From NCBI RefSeq assembly GCF_003426945.1, contig NZ_QURO01000004.1, positions 1,785,501 to 1,849,500 of the forward strand: a stretch of 64,000 nucleotides of DNA. The letters are read 5' to 3'. The translations under genes and the position numbers were made by a program. Positions 51,776 through 52,174 of the stretch are shown here, in pieces. How positions within the stretch are numbered: position 1 is the stretch's first letter; each line of letters opens with the position of its first letter. Source of the stretch: Thermus sediminis. GTDB taxonomy: Bacteria; Deinococcota; Deinococci; Deinococcales; Thermaceae. The notes below the pieces were generated by a model. The model saw only the letters and a program-made list of their open reading frames with translations. It was not told the origin of the DNA and made no database searches.

Positions 51776-52174
51776 CTAACCCTCCTCAGCGCCGAAAGCG
51801 CGGCGCCTTATGGCGTGCTCCGTGCTCCGCCAGTAGCGAAAGGCGGACTCCTCCTTGGCCCCGAAGGCCCGGGAGAGGCCCCTCAAGACCTCCTCGGGGT
51901 TCGCCCCCTCCCGGTAGAAGTAGAGGTCCAAGGTGGCCGAGGCCCCATCCTCAGGCCAGGTGTGGATCATCACCGCGGCCACCGGGCTCACCACCGCAGC
52001 GGAGAGGCCCTGGGGATGGAACTTGTAGACCACGGACTGGGCTGAGCCCTTGGGAGCCCCCAGGCGCATCACTGCGTCTAGGAGGGCTGCCTCCACCATC
52101 CTGGGGTTTTCCAGAACGTCCAGGTCGCACCCGTAGATCTCCGCCACCCAGCGCCCGCCCGGCACCGTTTCCAC
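51776..52174 (-). CDS. speD: AdoMet decarboxylase-like protein (SpeD homologue) without catalytic residues
   Basis: 132 residues from GTG 52174 ([17 protein letters not shown]), 8 bases after a TAACAT box; in-frame GTG 52192 and TTG 52201 are alternatives. Clearly SpeD by [24 protein letters not shown] and [18 protein letters not shown]. But the Glu-Ser-His self-cleavage site, whose Ser becomes the pyruvoyl cofactor, reads Val65-Ala66-Ala67, and the catalytic Cys after the HTWPE strand is Tyr87. The processing His71 remains. It cannot form the pyruvoyl group, so it is probably a partner or regulator of an active SpeD coded elsewhere. Adjacent to speE (2 bases). Confidence 0.85.

Follow-up and report, generated by a model that had tools for sequence, protein, structure and literature searches.

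A probable two-gene AdoMet decarboxylase in Thermus with a catalytically dead, speE-linked SpeD as its non-catalytic subunit

The SpeD homologue encoded next to speE in Thermus sediminis has lost its own catalytic residues and is, judging from comparative sequence analysis, probably the non-catalytic subunit of a two-gene heterodimeric class 1b AdoMet decarboxylase. A role as the dead-paralogue partner of an active SpeD is likely; from the pattern of lost and kept residues we infer that a heterodimer forms, that its geometry is trans and that processing or activity requires the dead copy. With somewhat less assurance, we favor the broader proposal that bacteria have arrived on at least three occasions at an AdoMet decarboxylase made obligatorily from two genes, each time with a speE-linked SpeD that lost catalysis and contributes to an unlinked SpeD nothing but the trans half of one composite site; the most advanced case would be that of the Desulfofervidaceae, in which neither subunit would be able to act as a homodimer. 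If this is true, these bacteria still carry, as two genes, an equivalent of the intermediate that came before the fused class 2 enzyme of eukaryotes, and the AdoMet decarboxylase of Thermus, a model for the polyamines of thermophiles, is a heterodimer. An earlier study was able to model the origin of the eukaryotic enzyme only from fusions with degraded ornithine decarboxylase (PMC10407285). The system would provide a natural, repeated example in which the two sides of a homodimer interface degenerate in complementary ways, and the passage from a symmetric two-site enzyme to the one-site asymmetric eukaryotic enzyme would become testable. A literature search covering papers outside subscription found no description of a two-gene bacterial AdoMet decarboxylase of this kind.

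The speE-linked SpeD and its missing catalytic residues

The gene occupies positions 51776..52174 on the minus strand of the window, that is, the whole 64,000-nucleotide stretch of DNA analyzed here. Its product was identified as a SpeD homologue in a preliminary description, and the match to the Pfam AdoMet_dc family (PF02675; E 9.4e-22, 77.8 bits, cut-off 25) bears this out; the score against NCBIfam TIGR03330 is 57.3 bits, under the equivalog cut-off of 75.65. The predicted fold matches AdoMet decarboxylase (AdoMetDC) of Thermotoga maritima (1tmi, E 7e-9), whose residue numbering is used throughout. In the alignment to the T. maritima protein (1tlu), where the relevant region is covered by ISESHLTIHTWPE, Val-Ala-Ala (51974..51982, minus strand) replaces the self-cleavage site Glu62-Ser63-His64 and a Tyr codon (51914..51916, minus strand) replaces that of Cys83, so that Ala and Tyr stand in place of the pyruvoyl-forming Ser63 and the catalytic Cys83. 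These substitutions had previously been numbered as residues 65-67 and Tyr87 of the Thermus protein, which the alignment shows to be right. Other residues are kept on the same strand: Phe at the position of Phe49 (52019..52021; human Phe223 by alignment), Ser at that of Ser55 (52001..52003; human Ser229), and a His-Thr-Trp-Pro-Glu stretch (51950..51964) that retains His68 and Glu72 (human His243 and Glu247 by alignment). In the following we refer to the intact SpeD copy as a-type, to the dead copy as w-type, and to the T. maritima-like clade that was the source of the w-type as t-type.

The absence of catalytic residues would also be expected of a decaying pseudogene or of a sequencing error. 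All 57 orthologues from Deinococcota genomes are, however, in the same state, with Val at position 62, Ala or Gly at 63, and Tyr (56/57) or Phe (1/57) at 83, while Phe49, Ser55, His68, Pro71 and Glu72 are kept in every one of them. The reading frame is uninterrupted, and within Thermus the w-type has a pairwise dN/dS of ~0.10 and the a-type one of 0.125: the dead gene is under strong purifying selection in Thermus and is as constrained as the active copy. Given the orthologues and the dN/dS values, error and decay are ruled out for practical purposes, with a probability that is close to nil, and the earlier view that the residues have really been lost stands.

The frame of the dead gene is open up to a first TTG (51776-52201, minus strand). 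The GTG at 52172-52174 is the more likely start than the TTG at 52201, because the open frame of several Thermus relatives begins only about three codons before this GTG. Downstream, 2 nt separate the stop codon from the ATG of speE (50859..51773, minus strand), which encodes a triamine/agmatine aminopropyltransferase (PF01564, 1.5e-47; NF002010 above cut-off). The upstream neighbor is the ftsK open reading frame (52194..54770, minus strand), which lies outside the proposed system. The gene was originally described as sitting between ftsK and speE; both neighbors are confirmed, and adjacency to speE is universal in the Deinococcota loci that were compared, but the ftsK neighbor is confined to Thermus and close relatives and is missing from most Meiothermus-type loci. 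In two draft assemblies, ftsK and/or speE is split across frames beside an unbroken w-type gene (L035 and L277 in G042, L041 in G029); these broken frames are probably assembly errors.

The place beside speE had also been taken to suggest selection for another job. Intact t-type SpeDs adjoin speE in many Dehalococcoidia and Desulfobacterota, and the speD-speE order, on comparison of these loci, is the ordinary one retained from an ancestral operon. Adjacency as a sign of a SpeE-related role is therefore ruled out. It is the SpeD of the operon that lost catalysis and the unlinked SpeD that took it over.

An intact partner and the proposed division of active-site residues

A search for a second speD with an intact Glu-Ser-His motif had been suggested in the preliminary description, and such a gene is indeed present ~1.17 Mb from the dead copy (G000:C4:667652-667981). 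Its product has the AESH and SC motifs intact and scores 78.1 bits against TIGR03330, above the cut-off. Homologues of speA and agmatinase are encoded in the same genome, and together with the intact SpeD they make the pathway that uses dcAdoMet complete on paper. Both SpeD copies are found in 47 of 50 Thermaceae genomes, the w-type alone in one draft (65% complete) and neither in two; both also occur in a second family (G058, G065-G070) and a third (G050, G053). Counting other phyla as well, an intact a-type partner is present in 62 of the 63 genomes with a SpeD that lost its catalytic set, the exception being the 65% complete draft. Across Deinococcota the dead SpeD, the intact SpeD and the Thermus-type SpeE are jointly present or absent, and two Meiothermus-type genomes have lost all three genes. 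Since the three vanish together, this phylogenetic profile gives the same pattern for a partner of SpeD and for a partner of SpeE.

Several genomes carry other SpeD arrangements. In G059-G064, which are probably Oceanithermus (L288-L293), a class 1a (E. coli-like) speD and a different speE appear to replace the a-type, w-type and speE genes. One genome with neither w-type nor speE (G052) encodes an a-type SpeD (L101) in which Ser55, His68 and Glu72 are kept and the catalytic Cys83 is Val. Trueperaceae (G072-G110; for example L119-L130) have single, highly diverged SpeD-like proteins, mostly without Ser63 and/or Cys83 and often with Ser55 and His68 kept, which have no obvious partner; a Thermus-type SpeE is usually missing as well. 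A dead SpeD can therefore persist for other reasons.

The residues kept by the dead copy correspond to one side of an active site that is built from two halves in the human enzyme. Residues 223-247 of human AdoMetDC, which lie in its C-terminal half in the PDB sequence, contain FNPCGYS (223-229) and IHITPE (242-247), so that Phe223, Ser229, His243 and Glu247 spell the same FxPxGxS...HxxPE motif that is found in the dead SpeD. With the motif placed in the C-terminal half, Ser68 of the fused enzyme belongs to one half, whereas Ser229 and His243 belong to the other. The human S229A variant fails to be activated, and H243A impairs processing by stalling its second step (PMC3975893). T. maritima Ser55 has been equated with human Ser229, and the S55A variant of the T. 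maritima enzyme still gets processed (PMC3975893). By homology, Ser63 of one chain of the bacterial dimer would work together with Ser55 and His68 of the partner chain.

Class 1b SpeD is a face-to-face dimer with two active sites. On the mechanism we propose, which is drawn from homology with the fused enzyme of eukaryotes, each site would be composed of a cis set from one subunit (pyruvoyl Ser63, Glu62 and Cys83) and a trans set from the other (Phe49, Ser55, His68 and Glu72). In Thermus, the unlinked intact SpeD would contribute the cis set and form the pyruvoyl group, and the speE-linked dead SpeD would contribute the trans set. The other site of the symmetric pair would be dead, so that the intact copy could lose its own trans residues freely. 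Phe49, Ser55, His68, Pro71 and Glu72 are kept by all 63 SpeDs that lost the cis set (57 from Deinococcota and 6 from other phyla).

Reciprocal changes are seen in the intact partners. An acidic residue occupies position 72 in 7 of 58 Deinococcota a-types versus 27 of 34 a-types without a dead partner, although Glu72 varies in some unpaired a-types as well. At position 55 the Deinococcota a-types have Thr in 50/58 and Ala in 6/58; Thr55 is common in ordinary single SpeDs, and the S55T change was accordingly dropped as proof of decay. Position 49 was left out of the a-type comparison because an insertion makes the alignment unsafe. In G053 the a-type has Gln in place of His68 and the w-type keeps His. 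The two Desulfofervidaceae a-types (G112 and G113) have S55F, H68S and E72T and have lost Pro71 while keeping the ESH motif and Cys, and the t-types of the same genomes keep Ser55, His68, Pro71 and Glu72 but lack His64 and Cys83. As far as the required residues are known, neither SpeD of these two genomes should work as a homodimer. Three genomes, of which two are close relatives, account for the strongest reciprocal losses. Taken together, the alignments show that the a-type has partly lost the trans set and that the w-type has lost the cis set and kept the trans set.

This division bears on three other explanations. The dead SpeD could be a subunit of SpeE that docks on the aminopropyltransferase and either aids its assembly or passes dcAdoMet to it; the tight coupling to speE (2 nt), the joint presence and absence of the three genes and a match of the predicted model to human spermine synthase (3c6k, E 1e-4) are consistent with this, and the AdoMetDC-like N-domain of that enzyme is a real precedent. 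However, the speD-speE order is ancestral and occurs with intact SpeDs in other phyla, retention of Phe49, Ser55, His68 and Glu72 in 63/63 proteins is not needed structurally, and the reciprocal changes fall in the other SpeD, which makes a SpeE subunit improbable. We give about the same low weight to a strict prozyme, which would bind the intact SpeD and activate or inhibit it by allostery alone, giving no residues to its active site; the kept residues would then serve ligand sensing. Dead paralogues of this type have precedents in trypanosomatid AdoMetDC and deoxyhypusine synthase (PMC5201418, PMC3663545), and the Thermus paralogue is likewise under selection, but the dimerisation domain of the prozyme is missing from bacterial enzymes (PMC5201418), and what has been kept is the trans set, not a random subset, with the partner losing those same residues. 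Of the prozyme-like partner of the preliminary description, the idea of a dead copy paired with an active SpeD is well supported by the intact second speD; its strict allosteric, trypanosome sense is disfavored, and trans completion of the active site is indicated instead.

Slightly less probable again is a protein that binds AdoMet or dcAdoMet, or is otherwise neofunctionalised, with a role outside AdoMet decarboxylation. Phe49 and Glu72, the equivalents of the human adenine-stacking Phe223 and of Glu247, are kept, lone dead SpeDs are retained by Trueperaceae, and neofunctionalised SpeDs are common (PMC10407285). Known neofunctionalised SpeDs, though, keep Ser63, His68 and Cys83 (PMC10407285), the self-processing set of SpeDA and SpeDC, of which Ser63 and Cys83 are missing from the dead SpeD, and the association with an intact SpeD is strict. 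Completion of a composite active site by the non-catalytic subunit of a heterodimeric decarboxylase is the mechanism with the best support.

Dead SpeD copies in other phyla

Scanning with a profile of the w-type revealed more dead t-types in Candidatus Desulfofervidaceae and Dehalococcoidia, and sampling of two groups added two further ones (G146 and G147). Every genome from other phyla with a dead t-type also has an a-type. Outside Deinococcota, the cis set is lost in 6 of the 16 t-type genomes that also have an a-type versus 0 of 37 without one (p 3e-4, relatedness ignored); when genomes found by the w-type query are removed, the counts become 2 of 11 versus 0 of 35 (p 0.053, relatedness again ignored). 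A single clade of cis-lost proteins is rejected by the tree (p-AU 1.9e-6), which rules out one origin of the dead copies and implies at least three changes, on a tree with long branches and few alignment columns.

The pairs can be arranged as stages of complementary degeneration. The two SpeD copies of G115 and of G156 are almost intact and seem to mark an early stage; Deinococcota, G116 and G147 would represent a middle stage, and G112 and G113 a late one.

Some proteins fall off this pattern or belong to other groups. A degenerate SpeD (L276, genome G123) has Gly at Ser63, Ala at His68 and Tyr at Cys83; it is off-pattern in having lost His68, its genome has an intact t-type and no a-type, and it was left out of the 63 cis-lost SpeDs. 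Nine Dehalococcoidia a-types (L265-L271, L273, L274) have HTFV or HTFE instead of HTFP and so are without the Pro described as the mark of a bona fide AdoMetDC; by this motif they are candidate pyruvoyl arginine decarboxylases. In L204 (G176) and L206 (G138), a SpeD match within a frame of ~430 residues is followed by a speE match in the same orientation, a possible SpeD-SpeE fusion.

Genetic data from Thermus and comparison with known systems

In the model of Thermus thermophilus HB27, TTC0473 is SpeD1, adjoining speE (TTC0472), and TTC1093 is SpeD2. TTC0473 is the HB27 orthologue of the dead SpeD. Deletion of speD1 in T. thermophilus is reported to leave the bacterium without long and branched polyamines and without growth above 75 C (review PMC6418473), and the deleted gene is almost certainly the dead speD studied here. 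Primers used for the HB8 speE knock-out start with sequence nearly identical to the ftsK tail of the window and end at the start of speE; HB8 therefore shares the ftsK-speD-speE gene order, and its orthologue of the dead speD is probably TTHA0825. Production of dcAdoMet is credited to SpeD2, which is named as SAMDC (PMC10981699). If both names mean these genes, SpeD1 and SpeD2 are both needed, as a heterodimer predicts, and this could explain the requirement for SpeD1 although SpeD2 is the intact enzyme. The phenotype of the speD1 deletion could also be a polar effect on speE.

Among known systems, the C-terminal half of eukaryotic class 2 AdoMetDC is most likely a closer parallel to the dead SpeD than is the prozyme of trypanosomes. 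The trypanosomatid prozyme is, similarly, a catalytically dead AdoMetDC paralogue with an active one in the same genome, but it is a full-size class 2 protein and an allosteric activator, whereas the dead SpeD has 132-141 residues and a single class 1b fold, a class 1b half without the size or the dimerisation domain of class 2. Trypanosomatid deoxyhypusine synthase (PMC3663545) offers another polyamine-pathway enzyme composed of one impaired and one dead paralogue, although with an unrelated fold and reaction. The N-domain of human spermine synthase shares a non-catalytic AdoMetDC-like fold tied to an aminopropyltransferase; it is a fused domain, whereas the Thermus protein is separate and keeps the trans residues of AdoMetDC. 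In the human enzyme this N-terminal domain serves dimerisation. T. maritima class 1b SpeD has the same fold and ~34% identity to the dead SpeD, but forms a self-processing homodimer whose chains each carry both sets of residues.

Two fused systems come nearest to the arrangement proposed for Thermus. The SpeDC fusions of Victivallis vadensis and Desulfobacter latus combine an active SpeD with a degraded SpeD homologue in one enzyme, and the V. vadensis fusion restores spermidine synthesis (PMC10407285). They consist of one polypeptide and their degraded half is thought to be derived from an ornithine decarboxylase, whereas in Thermus there are two genes and the dead half comes from an ordinary SpeD linked to speE. 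The C-terminal half of class 2 AdoMetDC (human, potato) is a half with the SpeD fold that has no cleavage site, keeps the FxPxGxS...HxxPE motif, and contributes Ser229 and His243, which the other half requires for its processing. In class 2 enzymes this half is fused to the active one, whereas the dead copy of Thermus is encoded by a separate gene, far from the intact speD.
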